Source: Telluria aromaticivorans
Lineage (GTDB): Bacteria; Pseudomonadota; Gammaproteobacteria; Burkholderiales; Burkholderiaceae_D
NCBI RefSeq assembly: GCF_013003915.1
Contig: NZ_JABAIV010000002.1
Span: forward strand, 434,001-498,000
DNA length: 64,000 bases
Direction: 5' to 3'
The translations under genes were made by a program, and so were the position numbers. The notes beneath the pieces were generated by a model. The model was not told the origin of the DNA and ran no database searches. It worked only from the letters and a program-made list of their open reading frames with translations. This document shows, in pieces, positions 1,302-40,906 of the stretch. Positions within the stretch are counted from its first letter, which is position 1, and the number at the start of each line of letters is the position of its first letter.

Positions 1302-2981
1302 TCAGTCCAGCGCGATCAGGGCGACCGGCGCTGCCGTACCGAACTGCACCTTGCCGCCGCTGACCACGGCCGACTTGCCCGAATACCAATCGCGCACGGT
1401 CTGGCCGTCGTTGAAGACGCCGGCCACCGAAATCGGCAGCGCCTTGTCGGCCGGCAGGTCGAGCGCCACGACCACGCGGTCGCTCGCGCCGTCCTGCTGC
1501 CAGGTACGCTTGAAGGTGTAGGGGCTGGACGCGATCATCTGGTGCCTGCCTGCGCCGACGGCAGGGTGGGCAGACCGGAAGCGGCCCAGGCGGGCCCAGT
1601 GCTCGCGCACTTCGGCCACGCGGTTGCTGCCGCGCTGCGCGTTGGCCGCCAGCTCGTCCCAGTTCATGAACGAGCGCAAGCTAGCATCGCCTTCGGCGCC
1701 CTCGACCTTCAAGAGGCGCGCGGTCTCGTCACCGTAATAAATCTGGGCCGAGCCCGGCGCCAGCATCAGCTTGTTGGCGGATTCGAAGGGGCGCTGGCGC
1801 AGCGGGTCGAAGGGGCTCCCATCGTCGTGCGAGCTGATGTAGTTCAGGACCGAATAACCCTTCATCGGACCGTGCAGCGCGTTCGAATAATCCGAGAACA
1901 GCTTTTCATAGCCCTGCGCGGCGTCGGTCTTCATGCTGAAGTTGATCATGCTGTCGAAGCCATTGGCCAGGTAGTCGACCTTCACGCCGCCGCCCATGTC
2001 GAAGCTGCGGCCATGGTTGATGGCATAGCCGTAGACTTCCGAGGTCATGAAGAACGGCAGGTCGCCGAGCTTCCTGGCCGGGTTGGCGCGCTTCCAGTCT
2101 TCATAGGCCAGGCTGGCTTCCTGTTTGAGTTCCTTCCACACGCCGGGTTCGGTGTGCTTGACGGTGTCGGCGCGGAAGCCGTCGACGCCGTACTTGCGCA
2201 CCCAGTCGGCATGCCATTTCACCAGGTAGAAGCGCGGCGCGCGCGGATAGCCGGTGCGCTTGAAGAAGGCGTCCAGCTCCTTCACTTCGCGCTCGTAGCG
2301 CCCTTCCTTCTTCCATTTCGCGACAAGTGCGGGCGGCAAGGCGACGTCCGCGTTGCTGTTGGTGAGGAAGTCCGGCAGGTTGTCCACCAGGGTGCAGTCG
2401 ATGGTGGTCGGCGCGTCCTTGTAGGTGCATTTCGGCTTGGTGCGTACCCAGTCCGCAGGCCATACCGGGTCGGCTTGCGTGACCGGGCCGGTATGGTTCA
2501 TCACCACGTCGAGGATCACGCGGATGCCGTTGACGTGCGCGGTGTCCACGAAGGTGCGGAAGTCTTTTTCACTGCCCAGGTTGGCGTCTACCGCCGTGAA
2601 GTCCTTCGCCCAGTAGCCGTGGAAGCCATAGGTCTTGCCGGTGCCTTCGTCGGTCGGCGCGTGGATCTGCTCGACCGGTGGGGTGAGCCAGATCGCATTC
2701 ACTCCCAGGTCCTTGAAATAGCCTTCGCGGATCTTGGCCGTGATGCCGGCCAGGTCGCCGCCCATGAAGCCGCGCAGCTTGGCGCCGTCATCCTTGCGGC
2801 CGTATGCGTGGTCGTTCGACTTGTCGCCGTTGTTGAAACGGTCCGTCAGCAGGAAGTAGACGGTCGCGTTCTCCCAGACGAAAGGCTTGCCCGCGGGCTG
2901 GGCGCGGGCGGTCTGGGCAGCAACGCTGGAGGCGGCGCCGAAGGCGAGCAGCATGGCGCAAGCAAGGACGGGAAGTTTCAT
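1302..2981 (-). CDS. Secreted GH13 alpha-amylase
   Basis: 559 aa with a clear signal peptide (residues 1-22, ending SSVAAQ), so it acts outside the cytoplasm on alpha-1,4-glucan. The GH13 catalytic barrel shows all conserved regions: DVVMNH (158-163), GFRAD with the nucleophile Asp272, the acid/base Glu315 in MTSEVYG, and SSHDD (Asp386). The start is supported by AGGAA upstream. It is the last gene of a three-gene operon (MFS transporter - phosphoglucomutase - amylase), 25 bp after the phosphoglucomutase stop. Inferred role: cutting starch or maltodextrin into oligosaccharides that the TonB receptor and transporter take up. The exact GH13 subfamily was not determined; periplasmic or extracellular location cannot be told apart from sequence. 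Confidence 0.93.
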   Translation of the reverse strand: MKLPVLACAMLLAFGAASSVAAQTARAQPAGKPFVWENATVYFLLTDRFNNGDKSNDHAYGRKDDGAKLRGFMGGDLAGITAKIREGYFKDLGVNAIWLTPPVEQIHAPTDEGTGKTYGFHGYWAKDFTAVDANLGSEKDFRTFVDTAHVNGIRVILDVVMNHTGPVTQADPVWPADWVRTKPKCTYKDAPTTIDCTLVDNLPDFLTNSNADVALPPALVAKWKKEGRYEREVKELDAFFKRTGYPRAPRFYLVKWHADWVRKYGVDGFRADTVKHTEPGVWKELKQEASLAYEDWKRANPARKLGDLPFFMTSEVYGYAINHGRSFDMGGGVKVDYLANGFDSMINFSMKTDAAQGYEKLFSDYSNALHGPMKGYSVLNYISSHDDGSPFDPLRQRPFESANKLMLAPGSAQIYYGDETARLLKVEGAEGDASLRSFMNWDELAANAQRGSNRVAEVREHWARLGRFRSAHPAVGAGRHQMIASSPYTFKRTWQQDGASDRVVVALDLPADKALPISVAGVFNDGQTVRDWYSGKSAVVSGGKVQFGTAAPVALIALD

Positions 2982-3006
2982 GCGGGTTCCTGTGGTGGTG
3001 GAGGGG

Positions 3007-4662
<1,656 letters not shown>

Positions 4663-16468: not shown

Positions 16469-16502
16469 ACCAGGTCACTCCCCTGAGCGCAATCGCATGA
16501 GC

Positions 16503-16635
16503 GTCGGGTGGGCGGGGTGATTTCGGCCTGGCCGGAATTACGAACGCCCACACGGTGATAGTTAGGGGTTAAACAGCCGCACGGGCTTCAGCACCGTGAT
16601 TTGAACGCGTGGGCAAGGAACTTGCCCACCCTACG
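16503..16635. repeat. GTAGGGTGGGC repeat, copy R4 (tandem array unit 1)
   Basis: First of three units in the 671-bp gap 16469-17139. Its left end is diverged (GTCGGGTGGGC) and its inner palindrome shortened (CGGCCTGGCCGG). The right end is GCCCACCCTACG. Confidence 0.85.
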
Positions 16636-16717
16636 ATTGACCAGCGACTCTGATCAGCCGACCGGGTTCGCGCCAAGTCAGGCCGTCTCGAACCCAGTCC
16701 GAGCGTCATCGCATGAC
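16636..16717. repeat. Tandem spacer derived from the 3' end of the lipid-kinase gene
   Basis: This segment between units R4 and R5, and again 16880-16962 between R5 and R6, repeats the sequence 17098-17155 that ends the lipid-kinase gene, including the codons for its last residues. The whole gap is therefore a tandem duplication of repeat element plus gene 3' end, with periods of 215 and 245 bp. Confidence 0.8.
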
Positions 16718-16879
16718 CGTAGCGTGGGCGGGGTGATTTCGGCCAATGGCCGGAATTACGAACGCCCACGCGGTGATAGTCAGGGCTTGAACAGCCGCAC
16801 GGGCTACAGCACCGTGATGTGAACGCGCGGGCAAGGTAATTCAGGGCAATGCCCTGAATTACGAATTGCCCACCCTACG
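16718..16879. repeat. GTAGGGTGGGC repeat, copy R5 (tandem array unit 2)
   Basis: Contains two 27-bp palindromes with different arms: one with core GGCCAATGGCC (left) and one with core GGGCAATGCCC (right, about 16832-16862). It is 27 bp longer than R6 because R6 lacks the right palindrome. Confidence 0.85.
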
Positions 16880-16962
16880 ATTGACCAGCGACTCGGATCA
16901 GCCGACCGGGTTCGCGCCAAGTCAGGCCGACTCGAACCCAGTCGGAGCGTCATCGCATGACC

Positions 16963-17097
16963 GTAGGGTGGGCGGGGTGATTTCGGCCAATGGCCGGAAT
17001 TACGAACGCCCACGCGGTGATAGTCAGGGCTTGAACAGCCGCACGGGCTACAGCACCGTGATGTGAACGCGCGGGCAAGGAACTTGCCCACCCTATG
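16963..17097. repeat. GTAGGGTGGGC repeat, copy R6 (tandem array unit 3)
   Basis: Left end GTAGGGTGGGCGGGG, left palindrome with core GGCCAATGGCC, right end GCCCACCCTATG (one base off). It ends 42 bp from the lipid-kinase stop codon. The gap holds nothing else that I can see. Confidence 0.85.
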
Positions 17098-17139
17098 ATT
17101 GACCAGCGACTCGGATCAGCCGACCGGGTTCGCGCCAAG

Positions 17140-18171
17140 TCAGGCCGTCTCGAACCCGGTACCGGGCGCCGGCCGCGCTTCCTTGCGCGACGGGCCATGC
17201 ACCATCAGGTAGAGCCGTCCCTCGAGCACGCGAAATTCAAGCGGCATCGCCATCGGCTCCACTTCGCCATCGGCCGCCACCTTCATTCGCTTGCGGCCAT
17301 ACACGGCCGGCGTGCGCACGGTCAGGCGCTTGAAGGCGAAGGCTTCGACGTCGGCCTCGCCGAGGCGGCCGAGCGCCCCGCGCACCAGCAAACCAAGCAA
17401 ACCAAGCCGCCCCATCGGCCGCGGCGCGATGGCCACCAGCTGCCCTTCTTCGACCGCCTCGGTCAGTCCATCCATGCCGACCTGCTCGAGCTGCAGCCGG
17501 TTGTTCCCGATGAACAGCGTGGTGGTGCGCAGGCGGCGCTCCTTGCCGTCGAGCTCGAGCGTGATGCGCAGGTGGCGCGCAGGCCGCAAGACGATCTTGA
17601 GTGCGGAGAAAAACGCGACTACCCGGCTGCGCCCGTACTGCGCCTTGTCGATCTCGCGTTCTTCCAGCAGCTTCGGGTAAAGCCCGACGCTGGCGTTGAC
17701 GAGGAAGACCTTGTTGTTGACCACGCCGACCTGCACCGGCCGCACATGGGCGCGCAGCAGCGCATACACGGCTTCTTCCAGGTCTTCCGGGATGCCGTGG
17801 GTGCGGCCGAAATAATTGAAGGTGCCTTGCGGGAGCACGCCGAAGGTGCAGCCGGCCAGCACCGCTTCGTGGGCCACCGTGTTGATGGTGCCGTCGCCGC
17901 CCGCCGCCACCAGGATGCCGCCACCGGCAATGGCGCGGGCCGCCATGCTGCGCGCCATCGCCTGCAATTCCGCGGGGTCGTCGACCAGCTCGAGATGGCA
18001 GGGTCGGCCGGCGGCGGCCAGCACGGCTTCAATGGTCGAGCGGCGCAACTCGGTCTCGGAGTGGCCCGATCCTGCATTCAGGACAATGAAAAACGGCGCG
18101 TCTGGACTCGGCTCTGTGGTTGGCATCGATGGTTTTGGGTGAATAGCGTGTGGACGATTCGACAAGACCAT
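17140..18171 (-). CDS. Diacylglycerol/lipid kinase family protein (YegS/BmrU-like)
   Basis: 343 aa. The ATG at 18171 has AGGTGA six bases upstream, better than the internal ATG at 18126. The catalytic domain carries the nucleotide-binding signature AAGGDGTINTVAHE (about residues 100-115), preceded by VLNAGSGH and followed by LPQGTFNYFGR. The C-terminal half is the beta-sandwich typical of the family. It phosphorylates a lipid such as diacylglycerol at the membrane, substrate not determinable here. It ends a run of co-directional genes after two GNAT acetyltransferases (50 bp upstream). The 3' end of this gene has been copied into the neighbouring repeat array. Confidence 0.9.
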   Translation of the reverse strand: MVLSNRPHAIHPKPSMPTTEPSPDAPFFIVLNAGSGHSETELRRSTIEAVLAAAGRPCHLELVDDPAELQAMARSMAARAIAGGGILVAAGGDGTINTVAHEAVLAGCTFGVLPQGTFNYFGRTHGIPEDLEEAVYALLRAHVRPVQVGVVNNKVFLVNASVGLYPKLLEEREIDKAQYGRSRVVAFFSALKIVLRPARHLRITLELDGKERRLRTTTLFIGNNRLQLEQVGMDGLTEAVEEGQLVAIAPRPMGRLGLLGLLVRGALGRLGEADVEAFAFKRLTVRTPAVYGRKRMKVAADGEVEPMAMPLEFRVLEGRLYLMVHGPSRKEARPAPGTGFETA

Positions 18172-31191: not shown

Positions 31192-31488
31192 CTAATCCGC
31201 CGCGTCCTGGATCTTCTCGCCGGCGTCCTCCACCTTCTTGCCGACTTCCTCGGTGGCGCGTTCCAGACCGCCCTTGGCGTCCTTGGTCGCATCCTTGATC
31301 TTGTCGCGGGCTTCGGCGGCGGCGCGGTCGGCCTTGGCCAGTTCATCCTCGACCTGGCGCGAAACCCGCACGCCGGCATCATCGAGCGCCTTGCCGGCCT
31401 TCTGGGCCGGCCCGAGCGCGTCTTCATCACGGCTGCAGCCTGCCAGCACGGCAAGGGCCAGCAGCGTTCCCAGCATGGTGGTTTTCAT
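31192..31488 (-). CDS. Small helical lipoprotein
   Basis: 98 aa with AGGAG before the ATG. A lipobox LAGC (Cys18) follows a short signal sequence, so the mature protein is lipid-anchored. The rest is one long charged amphipathic helix with KIKDATKDAKGG and heptad-like repeats rich in Ala, Lys, Glu and Asp, resembling small apolipoprotein- or LEA-like stress proteins. Function unknown. It lies 92 bp downstream of the tubulin-operon genes in the same direction and could be read through from them, but its strong ribosome site fits independent expression. Confidence 0.75.
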   Translation of the reverse strand: MKTTMLGTLLALAVLAGCSRDEDALGPAQKAGKALDDAGVRVSRQVEDELAKADRAAAEARDKIKDATKDAKGGLERATEEVGKKVEDAGEKIQDAAD

Positions 31489-31580: not shown

Positions 31581-32435
31581 TTACTCCCCACGGGTCGGGT
31601 CGGCCAGCGGATGCTCGCGCTCATCAATGATCTCCTGCCTCAGCGCGCGGGTGGCGTCGTCCTCGCCCCAGCGCCTGGTGAACACGGCCAGCCGGGCCAG
31701 CGCCTTGTCGTAGGTGCGCGCCCGCCGCAGCTTCTGCACCGCGCCGTTGGTGTCGGTCCAGGCCCGGGCGCGCTGCTCGGCGCGGGTGCAGTCGGCCGCC
31801 GCCTTGTTCAGCGACGACTGCACCTGGCGCAGCTGCTCCGGCGTGGCGCTGCTGCCGCGCAGGGCGATCAGTTCATCCTGCGCCTCGCGCGCCTTGCACT
31901 CGACGGCCAGCGCCACCGCGCGGTCCATGCGGCGCTCGACCCGGCTGCCGTCGGGTTTCACGACCATCCAGATCACCCACAGCATGACCAGCGCAGCGAT
32001 CCACCAGCGCAGGCGCACCGGCGCCCGCTGCGGCGGGCGTGCCGGCATCGGCGCCCCACGGATGCCGGGCGGCGGAGGGATGCCCCGTCCTGGTCCTGTT
32101 CCTGCATCGCCGGCGGGCGGCGGCGTGGCGGAGGCGGCGGCTCGTGCGGAGGGAGGCGGTACCGGCGCCGGCGACGGCGGCGGCACCGCAGCGGCAGCTG
32201 CTGCGGCAGCGGCGGCCGGCTGGACCACCGGCGGCGCAGGAGGAGGCGCAGGCACCGGGCGCGGCGGCGTCACCGGCGCCTTGGCCAGCACCGGCGGCGG
32301 GCTCACGCCCGGCTGCACCACCTGCTGGGCCGTGCCGCACCAGGGGCAGAAATTCACCCGCCTCGGCGTCAAGCGCCCGCACGAGAGGCCAATGCAGCGG
32401 TAGACCGCGTCGTCTTGCACCATACCGTCTTTCAT
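31581..32435 (-). CDS. Zinc-ribbon, proline/alanine-rich membrane protein of tubulin-like operon
   Basis: 284 aa. Its ATGA overlaps the stop of the tubulin-like gene, so it is translationally coupled. Order: an N-terminal zinc ribbon (C-x4-C then CPWCG, residues 14-34), a ~100-residue Pro/Ala-rich linker, one transmembrane helix (WWIAALVMLWVIWMVV, about 145-160), and a helical C-terminal domain with conserved-looking Cys in AVECKAREAQ. No similarity recognised beyond the ribbon. The layout suggests a cytoplasmic ribbon tethered by a flexible linker to the inner membrane. The shared ribbon with the first gene of the operon hints at a common partner. An internal ATG at 32423 is possible. Confidence 0.75.
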   Translation of the reverse strand: MKDGMVQDDAVYRCIGLSCGRLTPRRVNFCPWCGTAQQVVQPGVSPPPVLAKAPVTPPRPVPAPPPAPPVVQPAAAAAAAAAAVPPPSPAPVPPPSARAAASATPPPAGDAGTGPGRGIPPPPGIRGAPMPARPPQRAPVRLRWWIAALVMLWVIWMVVKPDGSRVERRMDRAVALAVECKAREAQDELIALRGSSATPEQLRQVQSSLNKAAADCTRAEQRARAWTDTNGAVQKLRRARTYDKALARLAVFTRRWGEDDATRALRQEIIDEREHPLADPTRGE

Positions 32436-35400
32436 TCGGGATCCGGGATGGCGTCATCCACGTCGTCCGGATCGGGAATCACCTTGTCCAGCACCGCCGC
32501 CAGTTCCGGTAACGCGCCGACCGTGCTCCACTTGTCCGCCTTCGGGTTCCAGGCCATGTTCCAGGCGCGCGTGCTTGCGTCGACCTCGCCGCGCGCAGCC
32601 TGCTGGGCGATCTCTTCGACCGTGAACGGGCCGCGCTGGGCGCCCTGCACGAACAGCTTGTAGCGCGGCTGGCTGGTTTGCCCGCTGCCCTGCTCCACAC
32701 CCTGCTGCGTGTCGTAAGCGGGCAGCGCCTTGGCCAGTTCGACCGCCGGGCGCCGCGCCAGCGCCTGGGCCGCGCGTTCGTCGTTCACTAAATATTCGGA
32801 CAGGATCACCCGCTTGTCCACCGGCCGCTCGACTTCCCAGCTGTAGGCGTCGCCGGCGGAATCGGGTACGGATTCGGTCCACTGCCCGATACCGGCCAGC
32901 GCGGTCTCGATCTGCGCCGGCGAGAGCGAAGGGTCGAGCGCGGCGGCGCGGCGGATCCACTGGTCGTACAGGCGCCGCGCCGTGATATTGGGCAGCGATG
33001 GCGACGGCAGCTGGGCGCCAGTCTCGTCGACCTCCAGGCGCGGCTCGTAGACGCGCAGCTGGTAGTGGCGCATCAGCGCCGCCAGCAGCGTGAGCTGGTG
33101 CGGCCCGACATTGGCCAGGCGGTGGCGCACGGCGCCGATCACCCCGTCACGGTAATACGGCGGCAGGCCGTTGGAGCGGATCGCAAACTCGTTGCCGATC
33201 TGGAGCCACTCGCCCGAACCCGGCTCCACCTCGAACAGGTATTGCCCGCGCGGCTGGAAGCTGGCCTCGCGGTCGCCGAGGTCGGGCTTGCGGCGGATGA
33301 CGCCGAGCGCGATCGCCTGCAGGAACCATTCGTAGTCGTCGGCGAGGCGATTGAGTTCGTCCATCGACGGCGACAACGGATGGCGGAAGCGCGTGGCGTC
33401 GAAATGCAGGTGGGTCGGGATCTTCGGGTTCTCGATCTGGTACGAGGCGCGCCAGGTCGGCAAGCCGCGCAGCACCGTCATCGGGTAGCCCGACAGCTCG
33501 ATATAGCAGACCGCCTTGCCGGAGATGCCGGTGTTGACCACCGAGAGCAGGTCGCCATGGAAGTACCCGGTCGGCACCGCAGCACGGAGCTCGGCTTCCA
33601 TCTTGCGCCAGCTTGCTGCATCGCCGACGCCGATGAAGCACTTGAACTGGTCGGCCGCGGGTGTGAACTCGGCCGAGAAGCGCGCGTTCACCCAGGGCAT
33701 GGCACTGCGGATCCATTCGGCGAACACGCGCTGGCGCTCCGGCGGGCTCATGCTTGATAAGCGTTCCAGCAGCGGGTCGACCGGCTCCGGCTGCTCGAGC
33801 TCCTGGCTGGAGAGCTGCAGCTGCGCCCGGCGGAATAGCTTGAGCAGCAGGTCGGCGCGCAGGCGCTCGTCGCCCAGTTGCGGGAACAGCCGCGCCGAGC
33901 CGCCGAATTCCAGCAGCACTTCTTCGCTCCAGGCGCTGACGTCGCCGGTGAGCCGCACCGGTGGCGGCAGCACGTCGGCGGCCAGCTTGATATAGGTGGC
34001 ATGCTCCTGGCGCGCATCGGCGCGCAGTTGGCTGATGCGCTGGTCGGCTGCATGCAACATGGCCTGCACCTGGCGGCGGCCATCCTGGAATTCGCCGGCA
34101 ATGCCGCTCCACTGGGCCTGGCCCTGCTCGTCGGTGCTTTGGGGGTCGCCCAGCCAGGCCGACATGTTGCGCATGACTTCGATCGACTGCCCGGCCGCCA
34201 CCGCCAGCAGGTGGAAGCGCAGGTAGTCGGCGATGTCGCGCTTGAGGTGGTTCATCACTTCGCGCGCCTGCGGCTCCTTGCCGAACATGCGGCTTGATGC
34301 CTGCGACAGGTTGTTGAGCGACTCCTCGACCTGGCGGGTGCGCAGCGCATCGCGGATGTCGCGGTAGCGGCGGCCATTGCGCTCGGCATTGGCCAGGTCG
34401 CGCTGCGACAGGCGCGCCTTGACCTGCTCCAGCAGCGACAGCACGAATTCCAGCCCGCCCTGCTTGCGGTCGTCCAGCAGCGCGTACAGGCGCTCGCGCA
34501 CGCGCGATTTCAGGCGCCCGCTCAATTCACCGGTGTGGCGTTTGATGCGGTCTTCGCTGGTCTCGGCAGTGGCGCCGGCTTCGCGGATCGCATCGCGCTC
34601 CAGGTGCGGCAGCAGTTCGGCCACTTTCTCGCGCCACTGCTTGATGTCGTAGGAGGCCATGATGCGGTCGACTTCGAGCTGCACCTTGCTTTCCACGCGT
34701 TCCAGCAGCGAGCGCCCGTCCTTGTCGAGCAGGAGCGTGCCGGTGAGCGCGTATTCCGGGAACGGCGTGATGTCCACCGTACCCTTGCGGAAGTCCGGGA
34801 AGGCGTCGAAGGGACGCTCGCCCATCTCCATCTGTTCGCGCATGAAGGTGTCGCGTTCGCCGTCGCCGGCACGGCGCGCCATGGAGCCGTCTGTTCCCAC
34901 CAGTCCAAAGAAAGCCTTCACCATCAGCCCGGCCAGCTCGTAGGCGCGGATGTCGTCGCGCAGGCTTTGCTGGGTGTCCAGCACGGCCTGGCCAAAGGCC
35001 GAGTACACCTTGGAATAGGACAGGCGCATGTCGCCGAAGCGCTGTTCCGGCACGCGCGGGTTGTAGGGTCCCAGCTTGTGCTGCTGCTGGTTGACCGCCA
35101 CCGAGCGCTTGCGGTTGGCGAAATCGGCCGACGCGAAATCTTCGAACAGGGTATCGGCGACCATCTGGTAGACGTCCTTGACGTCGAGCGTGGCCTTGTT
35201 GGCGAGGTTGGCGGTGTCGACGAAATACACGTCGTCGAAAGGCGCGCCCTTGCCCGAGATGCTGTCCGGGTCCATCCATGCTACCCGTGCATTCATGTCG
35301 CGCATCGCCGTTTCCAGTTCCATCAAGGTAGCGTAGGCATTGGCCTCGGTGCGCTCCTTGTTGGCCTTGGCGAAGCCGCCCGGCATGAACATCACCAGGT

Positions 35401-36106
35401 CGACCTGGCTGTCCGACACCTCTTGCCGGGCGATGGCTTTCGACAGCCAGCCCAGGTCGATGGCGCTGCCGGCGCCGGTCCCGCCCGCGCACGAGGCGAT
35501 GACGACGATGCGGAATTTCGAGGTATCCACCTGCAGGCCGAGGCGCTGGTAGTTCTCCTTGCGCTCGATGCCGGCATTGCTGCTCAGGAAATTCAGCGCG
35601 CCCTTGATGCGGCCGCGCAGCTTGGGATATTTGTCGAACAGGTAGAGCCGCGCCAGCGCACGGATCTGGCCCGCGCCCTTCGAGGGGTCGATGCCGAGCG
35701 AGCGCAGTTTCTTGGGGCGCAGCGGCATCCAGCTTTCGATCAGCGGAAAGCGCGCCAGGCTGTCGTCGGACTCGTGGTATTGCGGCAGGTCGAGCGGCTC
35801 GACCAGGCGTTCTTCGTCGGTGAGCTTCACCAGTTCGTACCAGGGGTCGGTGCGCTGCGACTTGCCTTCGTCGATGACGGCGTTGTTGTCGAGGTCGAAG
35901 TGCAGGAAACGCGCCACAGGGAAGTCGCCGATCGATTCGACGCGGGTCGGGCTGTGCCGGTTCCAGACGGCCGACAGGATGCGGCGGCGGATGCGCATCA
36001 TCACTTCCATGCCGGTGCCGCCCGCGCCGATGAACAGCGTTGGGCGCAGGTCGACCTTGAGCTCCGATTTGGCGTTCAGGCTTGCTGGGTTGGGAAAATC
36101 TGCCAT
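32432..36106 (-). CDS. Tubulin/FtsZ-superfamily protein (Tubulin_2-like) with C-terminal GYF-like domain
   Basis: 1224 aa, three times the length of FtsZ. The N-terminal ~430 residues look like a tubulin-type GTPase: a first glycine loop LFIGAGGTGMEV (24-35), and the tubulin signature as CAGGTGAGSAIDLGW (206-220), equivalent to FtsZ GGGTGTG. A MFMPGGF strand-loop follows near 238. The middle ~700 residues are mostly helical with coiled-coil character. The C-terminus (about 1149-1210) matches a GYF_2-type fold with YKLF, GPFT and WSTVGALPEL. The family is known as Tubulin_2 or FtsZ-like proteins, proposed from gene context to act in membrane remodelling (recalled); biochemistry is scarce. It is the fourth gene of a five-gene operon with vWA-like and membrane partners. 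GTP binding is inferred from motifs only. Confidence 0.82.
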   Translation of the reverse strand: MADFPNPASLNAKSELKVDLRPTLFIGAGGTGMEVMMRIRRRILSAVWNRHSPTRVESIGDFPVARFLHFDLDNNAVIDEGKSQRTDPWYELVKLTDEERLVEPLDLPQYHESDDSLARFPLIESWMPLRPKKLRSLGIDPSKGAGQIRALARLYLFDKYPKLRGRIKGALNFLSSNAGIERKENYQRLGLQVDTSKFRIVVIASCAGGTGAGSAIDLGWLSKAIARQEVSDSQVDLVMFMPGGFAKANKERTEANAYATLMELETAMRDMNARVAWMDPDSISGKGAPFDDVYFVDTANLANKATLDVKDVYQMVADTLFEDFASADFANRKRSVAVNQQQHKLGPYNPRVPEQRFGDMRLSYSKVYSAFGQAVLDTQQSLRDDIRAYELAGLMVKAFFGLVGTDGSMARRAGDGERDTFMREQMEMGERPFDAFPDFRKGTVDITPFPEYALTGTLLLDKDGRSLLERVESKVQLEVDRIMASYDIKQWREKVAELLPHLERDAIREAGATAETSEDRIKRHTGELSGRLKSRVRERLYALLDDRKQGGLEFVLSLLEQVKARLSQRDLANAERNGRRYRDIRDALRTRQVEESLNNLSQASSRMFGKEPQAREVMNHLKRDIADYLRFHLLAVAAGQSIEVMRNMSAWLGDPQSTDEQGQAQWSGIAGEFQDGRRQVQAMLHAADQRISQLRADARQEHATYIKLAADVLPPPVRLTGDVSAWSEEVLLEFGGSARLFPQLGDERLRADLLLKLFRRAQLQLSSQELEQPEPVDPLLERLSSMSPPERQRVFAEWIRSAMPWVNARFSAEFTPAADQFKCFIGVGDAASWRKMEAELRAAVPTGYFHGDLLSVVNTGISGKAVCYIELSGYPMTVLRGLPTWRASYQIENPKIPTHLHFDATRFRHPLSPSMDELNRLADDYEWFLQAIALGVIRRKPDLGDREASFQPRGQYLFEVEPGSGEWLQIGNEFAIRSNGLPPYYRDGVIGAVRHRLANVGPHQLTLLAALMRHYQLRVYEPRLEVDETGAQLPSPSLPNITARRLYDQWIRRAAALDPSLSPAQIETALAGIGQWTESVPDSAGDAYSWEVERPVDKRVILSEYLVNDERAAQALARRPAVELAKALPAYDTQQGVEQGSGQTSQPRYKLFVQGAQRGPFTVEEIAQQAARGEVDASTRAWNMAWNPKADKWSTVGALPELAAVLDKVIPDPDDVDDAIPDPE

Positions 36107-36136
36107 ATCGTGTTCTTTCGAGTGTTTACTTTACGC

Positions 36137-36595
36137 TTAGCGGCGGCCGACGAACAGCGCCGCGACCAGCGCGATCACGCCCACTGCCACCAGCGGGCCG
36201 GTGACGGCGAAGGTCAGGAATTTGCTGGCATTGATGATCGCCAGTACGGCGGCGGCCGATAAAAAGGCCAGGCCCACGAACAGCATCCAGCCGGCGCTGC
36301 CCGCCGACGAAGGCGCCACGCGCCGCACCACCAGGTGGTGCACGTAGGCGTTGCGCACGAAGAAATACACCACCAGCAGCACCACGAACACCACCGCACC
36401 GATGGCCAGGTCGCGCGTCGAGGTGTCGGTCGCGGGAATCGGCGCATTCGTCGTTCCGGGCACGACTTCGACCGGACGCCCGGCAGTGTCCGGAGAAGTC
36501 TGCGGCAGCGAATCCTGGGGCGAGCTTGATTCGTCGGGCAGCTTGAAGCCCGGATCGGCCTGGGACGGTGCGGAAGGTGACTGGGTTCCTTGCAT
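36137..36595 (-). CDS. Small multi-pass membrane protein of tubulin-like operon
   Basis: 152 aa from the ATG at 36595 (AAGGAA upstream at 10 nt). A ~60-residue Pro/Ser/Thr-rich, probably disordered N-terminus is followed by three hydrophobic helices: LAIGAVVFVVLLVVYFFV, the stretch from GWMLFVGLAFL, and LTFAVTGPLVAVGVIALV. No family recognised. It sits 25 bp after the vWA-like gene and 30 bp before the tubulin-like gene, so it may anchor the tubulin-like protein to the inner membrane. That role is inference. Confidence 0.72.
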   Translation of the reverse strand: MQGTQSPSAPSQADPGFKLPDESSSPQDSLPQTSPDTAGRPVEVVPGTTNAPIPATDTSTRDLAIGAVVFVVLLVVYFFVRNAYVHHLVVRRVAPSSAGSAGWMLFVGLAFLSAAAVLAIINASKFLTFAVTGPLVAVGVIALVAALFVGRR

Positions 36596-36620
36596 GGAGC
36601 GGTTTCCTTTTTTGTTTTTG

Positions 36621-38114
36621 TCAGCGGCCAAGCCGTACCTGCGCACCTTCGCGCAAATCAAACAGCTCGTGGCCGAACAGGGTGGTTTTCAGCTGCGCCA
36701 CCTGGGCGCCTGCCTTGTCGTAAATCGGTTGGACCGTGCCGGGACGGGCGCGCATGGTACGCAGCTCGTCCTCGACGGTGACCTGGGCCACGCGCGGCCG
36801 GCCATAGGCCCAGGCGCCGGCACCAAGCGCCGCCAGCAGGGCCGCGGCGATGCCGCCGAGCGCCGCCAGCGGTCCCATGCCGTAATGCACGCGCACCTCC
36901 AGCGGCAGCACGGCGTTCGAGGCCTGCACCGTGGCCGGCGGCGTGAAGATCTCGGGCAGCGGGTCGCCCGGGAACAGCGCGGCCATGCGCTGGCGGAAGG
37001 CCTGCGACAATTCCAGCTTCTGGTTCGCCAGGTGCAGCTCGATCCGGCCCGGCAGCACATAGGCCGAACCGGCGGACTTCATCGCTTCCATCGACCATTT
37101 GTCGGGCAGCTGGGCCACCGGCAGCTGCATGACCGAGCCGAGCGGCACCGGCTTGCCCGGCGCCAGGTTGTCCACGCGGCTGCTGGCCAGCTCGATCTTG
37201 CGGTCTTCGCCGGCCAGCATCGAGCGCGCGCTGAGCGTGGCCGAGGCGATGGTGTACGGGTACATCGTGTTCTCGAGGTGCCAAAGGATGCTGGCTTTTG
37301 GCGTGCGCGCATCAGGGTCGACGTCGGCGCGCAGCGCCCCGCCCTGCGCCTGCGAGAAGGCCACGCCGGGCGCGTCCTCCACTTGCGCGGGGCTGAGGCG
37401 CACCGTGTCACGGTCGAGCGGCTTCAGGCGCGCCGGCTGCTCGGTGATCACGCTGGCGATGCGGCCGGACGCCAGCAGCGCGTCGAGCGCGCGGCTGCCG
37501 GGCGCGCCGACGGCGAAGGCATACACCATCAGGCCATTGGCCTGGTAATGCTTGCCCTGGACTGGCATGCGCAGCGGGAAGGCCACGACCTTGTCGATCG
37601 CCGCGCCGCGGTGGATCAGCTCATAGAATTCGCGATTGCGTGCGGCGGTGGCCTGGTCGTTGTTCGGACTGTTGCGGTTGTTCGTCACCAGCCAGACGAT
37701 GCCGGGCTTGCCGCCGAGCGCCGTGCCGATGGCGGCCTGCACCGCTTCACCCAGGTCGGTGTCGGCCAGTGCGGCACTGCCCGGCTTGCGCGCCACCTCG
37801 AGGCCGGAGAGTGCAGCATTGACGCGGCTGCGCACGACCTTCGGGTCGGCCTTGAGCGAGAGCAGCGCCTTGGGCGAGGGCGCGCCCGGCAAGGATTGGT
37901 TGAAGGCAGCCAGCACCATGGCGTCGCCTGGCTGCACGACGGCGCCGGCCAGCGCACCAATCAGGGGCTTGAACTGGGATTGCGGGTCGGTGTAGAAAGG
38001 CTCCATCCAGCCGGAGTTCTGCACCAGGAAGACGTGTGGGGTCGCAGCCGCGGGGGAAGCGGCGGAGAGCAGCAACAGCAGCGCTGCAGCGCATTGGTGG
38101 AAAGTGACCCGCAT
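36621..38114 (-). CDS. vWA-like membrane-anchored protein of tubulin-like operon
   Basis: 497 aa from the ATG at 38114, whose first base is the last of the upstream stop (TGATG). Signal peptide (1-24, ending SPAAAT), then a vWA-like domain: first strand VFLVQNSGWME at the usual MIDAS position, later GIVWLVTNNRNS. The canonical DxSxS is replaced by QNSGW, so metal binding is doubtful. A beta-rich region follows, then a transmembrane helix (LGGIAAALLAALGAGAWAYG, about 410-430) and a short cytoplasmic domain ending FDLREGAQVRLGR. Topology is therefore mostly periplasmic with a small cytoplasmic tail that could contact the tubulin-like protein. Exact family not recognised. Confidence 0.72.
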   Translation of the reverse strand: MRVTFHQCAAALLLLLSAASPAAATPHVFLVQNSGWMEPFYTDPQSQFKPLIGALAGAVVQPGDAMVLAAFNQSLPGAPSPKALLSLKADPKVVRSRVNAALSGLEVARKPGSAALADTDLGEAVQAAIGTALGGKPGIVWLVTNNRNSPNNDQATAARNREFYELIHRGAAIDKVVAFPLRMPVQGKHYQANGLMVYAFAVGAPGSRALDALLASGRIASVITEQPARLKPLDRDTVRLSPAQVEDAPGVAFSQAQGGALRADVDPDARTPKASILWHLENTMYPYTIASATLSARSMLAGEDRKIELASSRVDNLAPGKPVPLGSVMQLPVAQLPDKWSMEAMKSAGSAYVLPGRIELHLANQKLELSQAFRQRMAALFPGDPLPEIFTPPATVQASNAVLPLEVRVHYGMGPLAALGGIAAALLAALGAGAWAYGRPRVAQVTVEDELRTMRARPGTVQPIYDKAGAQVAQLKTTLFGHELFDLREGAQVRLGR

Positions 38115-39607
38115 CACGCCGGATCTTCCAGGCGCCAGCCACGGATCTCGTTCCAGTCCGGATGGTGCAGCCACAGGCAGCCCGCGTACACGAAGGGCAC
38201 GCAGTCCAGCGGCCGCGACAGGCGCACCACTTCGTCGAGGATCACGTTGCGCCGGCCGATCCATTCGACCGTGGTGCGGGGAAGCACTCGCGCTTCCAGC
38301 GCTTCCTCGGCGCGGCCGGTGTATTTATGGAAGCGCAGCACCAGCCCGCTTGGCTGGCTGCGGTTGTTGTTGAAGGCGCGCAGCAGCGGCAGCACCAGGG
38401 TGTCGTCCTGGTTCAGGTCTTCGATGTGCTCGCCGGACCAGGGCTCGTCGACGACCGGGTGCCCGCGCCGGAACAGGAAGTTGGCAAAGCCCAGGCGCGC
38501 GCCGTCGATCGGCGCGCTCTCGGGACGGTCGGTACCCAGTTCGAGGAAGGAATACCCCTGGCCATCGTGGCCGATATGCCAGAGGCGGCCGTCGCGGCTC
38601 TGGGTCGGGCCGCCGAAATCGAGGCGCGGCAGCCAGCCCGGCGGCCAGGGGGTGAACAGCGGCGGCTGGCCCGGACGCCAGGCCAGCTGGCCCTGATCGT
38701 GCAGCCAGAACAGGCGGCCGTCGTAGCCGATCGGGCGCGACCAGCCGGCACGGGGAATATCCGGGCAGGCAAATTCTTCGACTTCGAGCAGGTCGCTGCG
38801 CGCGCTCCACAGGCGCACCGTGCCGCCGGCGTCGGCGTCCGGGCAGACCAGGCAGGCGATGTGGCGGCGCATGGCGCCGGGCGCGGCGACCAGCGGTGCT
38901 TCCAGTACGGGCTCGGTGCGATAGGTTTCGCTCACGGGATTGATCCACAGCCGATGCAGGCCGCTGCTGGTGGGGACAATCGCCACCTCGCCGCGGCGCG
39001 GCTCGAGCACCGGCAGCCAGGCATAGCACGAGGCGGTGAAGGCCAGGCCGGCGGCGCCGTCGTCCGGCGCCATCACATGCCACAGGCCGGCGACCGGGTC
39101 CCAGTACTGCAGCACGCCGCGCGTGTGGGCCAGCGCCAGCAGGCGCTGCTCGGGAAAACCGTAGTGGGATGCCGCGAACACGCACTGCGCATTCGGCGGC
39201 ACCGGCATCGCCAGGTCATGGCGGCCGACGTGGGGCGCGGCTGGACGCTCTTCCAGACTGTCGCCCAGCGGCAGCGAGGTGACCGGCAAACCGTGCGGAA
39301 CGTGGCGCGGCAGCGTGGCATCCACGCCGGGGCCCCACCAGCCAGCCTGGCGCGCAGGTGTCCCCGGCAGCCGCAGCAAGCTGCGGCCGCAGTTCGGGCA
39401 AAAGGCGAAACCTTCCGGATAGATGGGCGCGCAGGCGCAGGCGTCCGGCAGCGAGGCGCCGAGCAGGCGGGCGACATCGGGCAGGCGGCTGTGGGCGTGG
39501 GCCTGCCAGTCGATGCGGCCCAGGCCCTCGGTTGCCAGCAGTTCGAACTCCCCGCTACGCTCGTCTTCCTGCCAGACACTGGCAGGCGTTTCCCATCTGT
39601 ATCTCAT
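38114..39607 (-). CDS. Zinc-ribbon plus beta-propeller-like protein, first gene of tubulin-like operon
   Basis: 497 aa from the ATG at 39607, which has AAGGTGA six bases upstream; the frame is open to 39850 but the extra codons do not look coding. Residues about 55-80 form a zinc ribbon (C-x-C then CPNCG). The remaining ~400 residues are beta-rich with repeated Trp/Asp-Gly elements (YWDPVAGLWHV, GYDGRLFWLHDQGQLAW, SRDGRLWHIGHDGQGY), suggestive of a beta-propeller. No signal peptide or transmembrane helix, so cytoplasmic. Its stop overlaps the start of the vWA-like gene by one base. Function unknown; a scaffold or sensor role is inference. Confidence 0.7.
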   Translation of the reverse strand: MRYRWETPASVWQEDERSGEFELLATEGLGRIDWQAHAHSRLPDVARLLGASLPDACACAPIYPEGFAFCPNCGRSLLRLPGTPARQAGWWGPGVDATLPRHVPHGLPVTSLPLGDSLEERPAAPHVGRHDLAMPVPPNAQCVFAASHYGFPEQRLLALAHTRGVLQYWDPVAGLWHVMAPDDGAAGLAFTASCYAWLPVLEPRRGEVAIVPTSSGLHRLWINPVSETYRTEPVLEAPLVAAPGAMRRHIACLVCPDADAGGTVRLWSARSDLLEVEEFACPDIPRAGWSRPIGYDGRLFWLHDQGQLAWRPGQPPLFTPWPPGWLPRLDFGGPTQSRDGRLWHIGHDGQGYSFLELGTDRPESAPIDGARLGFANFLFRRGHPVVDEPWSGEHIEDLNQDDTLVLPLLRAFNNNRSQPSGLVLRFHKYTGRAEEALEARVLPRTTVEWIGRRNVILDEVVRLSRPLDCVPFVYAGCLWLHHPDWNEIRGWRLEDPA

Positions 39608-39844
39608 GCCGTCACCTTGGTGCCCCTTATTCGTATATAAAACCCAGCGTGTCGAGACTATTCGTTCCCTCTTGTTGTTGCTCAAATCATAGCGCTCAGG
39701 ACTGTCGCGCGGCGCGCCGTACACGGGGTAGCGTGCCATGACCCTTTTGGGATCAACAAATGGGCTGATTGGCAGGTGGTGCGGGGAACTTTTGGCTGAC
39801 GTACGTATAATGGCGGCCCGGCTTCCGCTCCCAATTTGCCAGAC

Positions 39845-40906
39845 ATGCATACCCCCGAATCACCTGACGACCAGCACCCTGGCGACCTGCCGCCACACGC
39901 CGTCGATGCCGCCGAGGCGCACTTGCGCGACGTGCTCGCGCATGCGCTCGAATACGGTCCAGCCCACGCCGCGCTGGTCGTCTACGACACCCGCACCGCC
40001 CTGGCGCGCGCGCTGCTCGAGGGCTACCGCCGCAACCTGCCCGGCGCGGTCTTCATCGATTTCGATTCCGCCACGCCCGAGGCGGTGCTGGCGGCCTTCC
40101 GCGCGATGGCGCCGCAAGACCTGGTGGTGCTGGTGCAGTCGACCAACTTCCGGCTGGATGGCTTCCGTATCCGCGTCGAGCTGTTCAAGCTGGGGCTGAA
40201 GGTGGTCGAGCACGTGCACCTGTCGCGCATGCCGGGAGCGCAGTCGGAGCATTACATCGAGGCGCTGGCCTATGACCCGGCCTATTTCCGCGGCGTTGGG
40301 CGCGCACTAAAAGCGCGGATCGACGCGGCGCCGCATGCGCGCGTGCTGGGCGGCGGCGAGACCTTGACCTTCGCCTCGGCGCTGGAGCCGGCCAAGCTGA
40401 ACGTGGGCGACTACAGCGAGATGAACAATGTCGGCGGCCAGTTCCCGATCGGCGAAGTGTTTACCGAAGCGCTCGACCTGGAAGCGGTGCACGGCCGGGT
40501 GCAGGTGCACGTCTTCGGCGATACGAATTACCGTTCGAACCGGCCCGAGGTCCCGGTGACCCTGGTCATCGAGCGTGGCCGCGTGGTGGGCACCGAGAAC
40601 GCCACGCCGGCATTCCAGCAGGTACTGGACAACATCACCGAGATCGAGGGCGAAGTCTGGGTGCGCGAGCTGGGATTCGGCATGAACCGCGCCTTCACGC
40701 GCGAGCGCCGCGTCGACGATATCGGCACCTACGAGCGCATGTGCGGCATCCACCTGTCGCTCGGCGCCAAGCATGGCGTGTACACGAAGCCCGGTTTCAA
40801 GCGCAAGGACGCGCGCTTCCACATCGACGTATTCGCGGTCACCGATGCGGTCTACCTGGGCGAGGAAAGGGTGTACGCCGACGGCCGCTGGATGTGTAAC
40901 ACCTGA
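39845..40906 (+). CDS. M29-like metallopeptidase homologue (aminopeptidase T / NicX-like)
   Basis: 353 aa from the ATG at 39845 (a TTG nine bases earlier is possible). The C-terminal two thirds carry the M29 landmarks in order: GGQFPIGEVFT (metal Glu), WVRELGFGMNRAF, GIHLSLGAKHG (His) and HIDVF (His/Asp ligands). Family members are metal-dependent aminopeptidases or ring-cleaving dioxygenases such as NicX. Which reaction applies here is not clear. A TATAAT hexamer lies at 39806-39811, but without a good -35. It is divergent from the tubulin-like operon and followed by the histidine kinase gene 26 bp later. Confidence 0.78.
   Translation: MHTPESPDDQHPGDLPPHAVDAAEAHLRDVLAHALEYGPAHAALVVYDTRTALARALLEGYRRNLPGAVFIDFDSATPEAVLAAFRAMAPQDLVVLVQSTNFRLDGFRIRVELFKLGLKVVEHVHLSRMPGAQSEHYIEALAYDPAYFRGVGRALKARIDAAPHARVLGGGETLTFASALEPAKLNVGDYSEMNNVGGQFPIGEVFTEALDLEAVHGRVQVHVFGDTNYRSNRPEVPVTLVIERGRVVGTENATPAFQQVLDNITEIEGEVWVRELGFGMNRAFTRERRVDDIGTYERMCGIHLSLGAKHGVYTKPGFKRKDARFHIDVFAVTDAVYLGEERVYADGRWMCNT

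Follow-up and report, generated by a model that had tools for sequence, protein, structure and literature searches.

A five-gene operon (A to E, minus strand, 31581–39607) is present in the window, the whole 64,000-nucleotide stretch of DNA that was analysed. Its fourth gene encodes a Tubulin_2 (FtsZl1) protein, D, which is predicted to be a complete two-domain tubulin with the C-terminal half (residues ~816–913) placed behind a helical insertion of ~415 residues. As the best explanation we propose that A to E form one inner-membrane machine in which D, a split tubulin, would assemble GTP-dependent filaments anchored by B, C and E, which are predicted membrane proteins; we put the chances of this reading at about even. 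The operon and its wide conservation, the matches to Tubulin_2 and GYF_2 and the invariance of individual residues in the alignments are computed results; the folds of D and B and the membrane helices are predictions.

Organization and conservation of the operon

The host genome is 5.23 Mb in size and its close relatives are Massilia. It contains one Tubulin_2 gene and one ordinary FtsZ gene, the latter on another contig. An earlier note on this DNA had described five minus-strand genes with gaps of 30 bp or less, and all five open reading frames were found in place. Genes A and B overlap at TGATG and genes D and E at ATGA; B is separated from C by 25 bp and C from D by 30 bp. Both overlaps named in the note were thus recovered, and its count of three overlapping junctions has to be corrected to two of four. 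For gene A (38114–39607, 497 aa) the start at 39607 was preferred to a longer reading frame beginning at 39850: conservation begins at 39607, and W5 is invariant in 15 aligned sequences. Gene starts in relatives were chosen by script, those of A near the point equivalent to 39607. Tubulin_2 and GYF_2, both in D, were the only Pfam families over cut-off among the five proteins, and NCBIfam and PADLOC searches with these proteins produced no match of weight. The divergent neighbour at 39836–40906 (plus strand) has no Pfam match and is located no more than 3 kb from A in 54 of 62 window-type loci.

Within the genus, 58 of 62 genomes carry D, the window's own among them. Tubulin_2 was present in 84 of 294 genomes of a family sample and in 7 of 300 genomes of an order sample, four of the latter being from the window's own genus, and B in 3 of 398 genomes of a phylum sample, including the window's own genome and one more of its genus. 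Among 38 nearer loci, the window counted, 35 have a detected B, 35 a detected C and 34 a detected A. A shorter class of Tubulin_2 protein, of ~1000 aa, is carried by the three loci lacking B.

A scan for B with one genome per species yielded 169 relatives, from which the best 80, chosen by two B peptide patterns, were kept. These best 80 of 169 span Alpha-, Beta- and Gammaproteobacteria and reach as far as a Bacteroidales MAG; they include, in a list that is not exhaustive, Massilia and its kin, Pseudomonas, Stenotrophomonas, Rhodanobacter, Acinetobacter, Endozoicomonas, Methylococcaceae, Thiodictyon, Acetobacteraceae, Aureimonas and a Desulfotignum MAG. D lies downstream of B in every one of the 80. 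Seventy-seven of them have the order A-B-C-D, two have B-C-A-D (one from Desulfotignum) and one has B-A-D. E was recognised downstream of D in 68 loci; in 5 of the 12 misses D is at a contig end. The neighbours are therefore conserved well beyond close relatives, up to the Bacteroidales MAG. Several of the 80 loci come from the same genomes as other loci that were fetched (e.g. L112/L111 and L161/L079), so the locus sets are not independent. Analyses of the B motif, of A, and of A, E and the D tail on the wide scale used at most 38 of the 80 loci, hand-picked for diversity. Over 50 loci, the pairwise distances among B proteins track those among D proteins (correlation 0.95), as is expected of any vertically inherited pair; the value was calculated with no unrelated-gene control, and the A-D correlation is to be read in the same way. 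In L103 (genome G334) D is interrupted and split over two frames. Because D is kept in so many genomes of the genus and the order A-B-C-D in 77 of 80 loci, the operon is not a chance arrangement.

The patchy distribution outside the genus, with Tubulin_2 in so few genomes of the order sample, would suit an anti-phage or conflict system, and integrase- and transposase-like genes (labelled by eye) lie near one Acinetobacter copy, L133. However, PADLOC returned 0 families for the five proteins at E up to 1, B had no match on 72,556 plasmids and D none in 50,697 phage records (E 1e-5), and both the retention of D in the genus and the stable position of the divergent flank gene near A speak against such a role. 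With no defence, plasmid or phage link found in these searches, we consider this reading highly improbable.

Predicted tubulin fold of protein D

Gene D (32432–36106) encodes a protein of 1224 aa. Tubulin_2 (PF13809) matched residues 24–374 (4.4e-48, 164.8 bits against a curated cut-off of 27). The two loops read from the sequence in the earlier note, GAGGTG at residues 27–32 and CAGGTGAGS at 206–214, were both located. Glycines G29, G30 and G32 of T1 and G208, G209, G211 and G213 of T4 are invariant in 50 of 50 aligned sequences, and the first glycine of T4 is alanine throughout (AGGTG vs GGGTG).

In the structure model, residues 20–400 (34907–36049) adopt a predicted GTP-binding half of the tubulin fold, running through the central helix H7 (327–344), S7 and H9. 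A predicted helical insertion follows at residues 401–815 (33662–34906), and residues 816–913 (33368–33661) are predicted to form the C-terminal (activation) half. The insertion is positioned between H9 and S8 of the model and is 414–439 residues long in 50 aligned sequences; long helices are predicted between the two halves at 552–605, 610–652 and 668–699. A tubulin domain followed by a coiled-coil region and a C-terminal region is the layout of Tubulin_2/FtsZl1 proteins, and D has it. The model aligned with CetZ1 over 312 of 330 residues, with TubZ over 293 of 303 and with FtsZ 2r6r over 302 of 323, so that nearly the entire fold of CetZ, TubZ, FtsZ and tubulin is common to the predicted D structure. 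D differs from these proteins in the large H9-S8 insertion, an extra region at 914–1120, the GYF end and a T7 motif that is not conserved. The Pfam match and the model both support the tubulin fold that had been proposed for residues 1–430.

When a D profile was compared with 31 FtsZ proteins, the T4 region alone was matched, and not significantly. The C-terminal half gave nothing against the FtsZ profile, whether the insertion was kept or omitted, and did no better than five control segments. Since this comparison lent no support, the split fold is taken from one structure model. Against four Tubulin_2 proteins of the shorter class, the N-terminal half of D was recovered with E 2.6e-17 (24–321) and the C-terminal region weakly (Prob 18%). 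No recognisable or conserved motif for the T7 catalytic loop was seen in the 50 aligned sequences; D359, the best candidate for the T7 aspartate, occurs in 36 of these 50, its register being uncertain. The stretch SADFANRKRS (326–335) was considered as a T7-like loop and dropped because in the model helix H7 begins there.

FtsZl1, the same family as Tubulin_2 (PMC9871819), was analysed in 2010 by authors who did not find T6-H7 and the C-terminal tubulin domain and who left three options: a diverged half, a new filament mechanism, or (iii) no filaments (PMC2875224). Unlike in that analysis, the D model contains both T6-H7 and a C-terminal tubulin domain, split by the insertion. Option iii corresponds to D keeping a tubulin fold and acting beneath the membrane as a large switch or clamp that depends on GTP, made a scaffold for its partners B, C and E by the insertion and the GYF domain. 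The T7 motif that is not conserved and the altered T4 loop fit such a protein, and so very large an insertion between H9 and S8 could block subunit contacts. Yet the predicted fold is complete, its C-terminal half included, and according to the 2010 authors all characterised members of the superfamily form filaments (PMC2875224); we regard a D that forms no filaments as rather unlikely. In the preferred reading of D as a filament-forming split tubulin, assembly would take place on the cytoplasmic face through the usual tubulin contacts, supplied by both halves of the fold, and the helical arm would project from the filament and might space or bundle filaments.

The GYF domain and the partner proteins

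The GYF-like end attributed to D proved to be a GYF_2 domain (PF14237; 2.4e-7, 30.9 bits vs cut-off 25.8) at residues 1153–1202 (32501–32650). Behind it is a short C-terminal tail (32435–32482) with the repeated motif IPDPDD / IPDPE. This tail switches by lineage, being acidic with IPDP-type repeats in the Massilia type and proline-rich in most others: 52 of 58 nearer proteins have an IPDP-type tail and 6 a proline-rich one, and among 38 wide proteins 32 are proline-rich, 5 acidic and 1 neither. A PPPPG[VI] motif in E occurs mainly in the nearest relatives of the window and is missing from most other E proteins, and for that reason docking of the GYF domain on PPPPG was dropped as a general rule. 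Docking sites for the domain may be proline-rich stretches in E, in C or in D itself. In the Pseudomonas loci L125 and L126, a second, shorter D-like reading frame (~16481–17521) follows protein F.

Gene A encodes a protein with no hydrophobic helix by hydropathy, as is the case for D, and with a zinc-ribbon-like cysteine pattern at ~57–74. The ribbon match is weak (E 0.01). Of the 38 A proteins compared on the wide scale, some of them partial, four show a four-cysteine pattern, one each from Desulfotignum and Massilia horti and two from Acetobacteraceae; judged from sequence, the putative zinc ribbon of A is patchily distributed. A propeller-like fold, as suggested earlier for A, was not confirmed: Reg_prop (0.045) and PQQ_2 (0.12) each matched 1 of 46 members below cut-off, no Pfam propeller family was over cut-off, and no internal repeat was found in A. 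Sequence searches of solved structures with A and B profiles yielded no meaningful match.

Gene B (36621–38114) encodes 497 aa with a signal-peptide-like start (hydrophobic segment 13–31), a predicted vWA fold at residues ~21–227 (37434–38054), a beta-sandwich, one membrane helix (412–436 by hydropathy) and a small C-terminal beta domain. Pfam VWA matched 2 of 50 B members and VWA_2 1 of 50, the best at ~0.04. As these matches are weak, the vWA assignment was taken from the structure model, which with the hydropathy profile bears out a vWA-like membrane protein and gives the operon the vWA-fold partner gene typical of Tubulin_2/FtsZl1. Foldseek with the B model returned mainly potassium channels (ranks 2–13) and no vWA-titled row among the 50 matches listed. 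An intact MIDAS DxSxS is not present in B. It is replaced by Q32-N-S-G-W36 (38007–38021), in which Q32, S34, G35 and W36 are invariant in 50 aligned sequences.

The two remaining genes were also as described in the earlier note. Gene C (36137–36595, 152 aa) has a proline-rich start of 57 residues followed by three hydrophobic helices predicted by hydropathy. Gene E (31581–32435, 284 aa) has a zinc ribbon pattern, a proline-rich linker, one hydrophobic helix at 140–160 and a charged C-terminal part. The E ribbon pattern was present in 29 of 30 wide E-profile hits, of which some pieces are partial and at least two (L119 and L160) lie upstream of A and not behind D. Of the 118 loci looked at, 39 also carry a gene F, whose product is in most cases lipoprotein-like and has a glycine-zipper stretch. 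Most of these 39 loci lie outside the window's Massilia type, which is without F, and 3 of them are of the shorter Tubulin_2 class. The recurrent partner set is thus A, B, C and E, together with the glycine-zipper protein F outside most Massilia loci. In the window a gene at 31192–31488 (minus strand), 92 bp past E, encodes a 98-aa lipoprotein-like protein with an LAGC box; it is present in relatives, its adjacency to E is not constant, and it might replace the missing F. The shorter Tubulin_2 proteins (~1000 aa) of the related genomes L071, L072, L107 and L080 have other partners, namely an F-like protein in the first three and OmpA-like and caspase-like proteins (labels by eye) in L080.

In the proposed machine, D would be held at the inner membrane by its three partners with predicted membrane helices (B, C and E), and B would sense or bind something periplasmic with its vWA face, without recourse to the usual metal site. 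In lineages with F the machine may reach the outer membrane.

The operon could alternatively be an accessory to type IV pili, secretion or gliding that positions or powers the surface structure concerned and has no part in membrane remodelling. Adventurous gliding motility protein X, whose solved GYF domain we take to be from Myxococcus, presumably combines a zinc ribbon, a proline-rich linker and a membrane helix, in outline like E. A solved domain with this title (PDB 7z3c) was matched in sequence by the GYF end of D (6.1e-6). In our operon, in contrast, the GYF domain and the ribbon are on separate proteins, D and E, and no gliding gene is among the five. In Synechocystis the Tubulin_2 protein Sll0445 associates with proteins of the pilus and the photosystem, and phototaxis is impaired in its mutant, the sole phenotype for the family in the open-licence literature searched (PMC9880817). 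There a Tubulin_2 protein like D, encoded in the sll0445-sll0447 cluster, is tied to envelope structures, but its partners, with FtsA and DivIC domains, are unlike A to E (PMC9880817), and none of our five proteins matched a pilus family in Pfam. We find this alternative distinctly improbable. For the filament-based machine itself, a role in an envelope or surface structure is our best guess.

Relation to FtsZl1/vWA operons and implications

Makarova and Koonin linked the Tubulin_2/FtsZl1 family to vWA proteins in 2010 (PMC2875224). Since Tubulin_2/vWA operons were described then, the present operon belongs to a known kind. It has in common with the FtsZl1 systems of that paper the Pfam family, the N-terminal tubulin domain, central coiled coil and C-terminal region, a vWA-fold operon protein, and presence beside an ordinary FtsZ. 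It differs from them, as they are set out in the main text, in the replaced vWA metal site (an intact MIDAS DxSxS was stated for most, not all, vWA partners), in the partner set A, B, C, E (F), and in the GYF end of D. The frequent FtsZl1 operon partners, a protein kinase, a P-loop GTPase and an OmpA protein (PMC2875224), were not found by Pfam among the five proteins. The earlier note had not recognised the partner set as described; this does not hold for the vWA link, published in 2010, and agrees with the main text of PMC2875224 in that the words zinc, propeller and GYF are absent there, further partner families being listed in its supplements. A Polaromonas family member is cited in the same paper, and its reviewer remarked on an adjoining TRAP-type periplasmic gene (PMC2875224). 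In L079 a periplasmic solute-binding-like protein with the motif TGGKTGTYY is encoded upstream of the operon (2855–3979); the motif occurs in 2 of 85 loci, both from one genome.

The open-licence literature searched for the operon, its domains or function yielded the 2010 paper, papers citing it and the Synechocystis study, the rest being unrelated; the available text of the citing papers PMC6952346, PMC10936438 and PMC9871819 reports no function for the family. We conclude that the operon is a distinct variant of FtsZl1/vWA operons by its partner set, altered vWA site and GYF end. New as predictions are the tubulin fold of D, complete although split, the altered-site vWA protein B and the defined partner set.

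A bolder extension, which we hold to be unlikely, is that the 415-residue arm, inserted in the C-terminal domain of the tubulin, acts like a motor or spacer in each subunit of the filament and that the cytoplasmic filaments drive a trans-envelope machine, in which a metal-free periplasmic vWA protein couples them with a lipoprotein of the outer membrane. FtsZl1 would then never have lacked its 'missing' half, and the whole family would polymerise as true tubulins.

The D model favours the first of the 2010 options, a diverged half, and locates the missing half, so constructs with the whole fold, or with the arm removed, can be designed. A split but complete fold would answer the question left open in 2010, which is now testable, and the operon offers a recurrent and widespread partner set in culturable genera such as Massilia and Pseudomonas.
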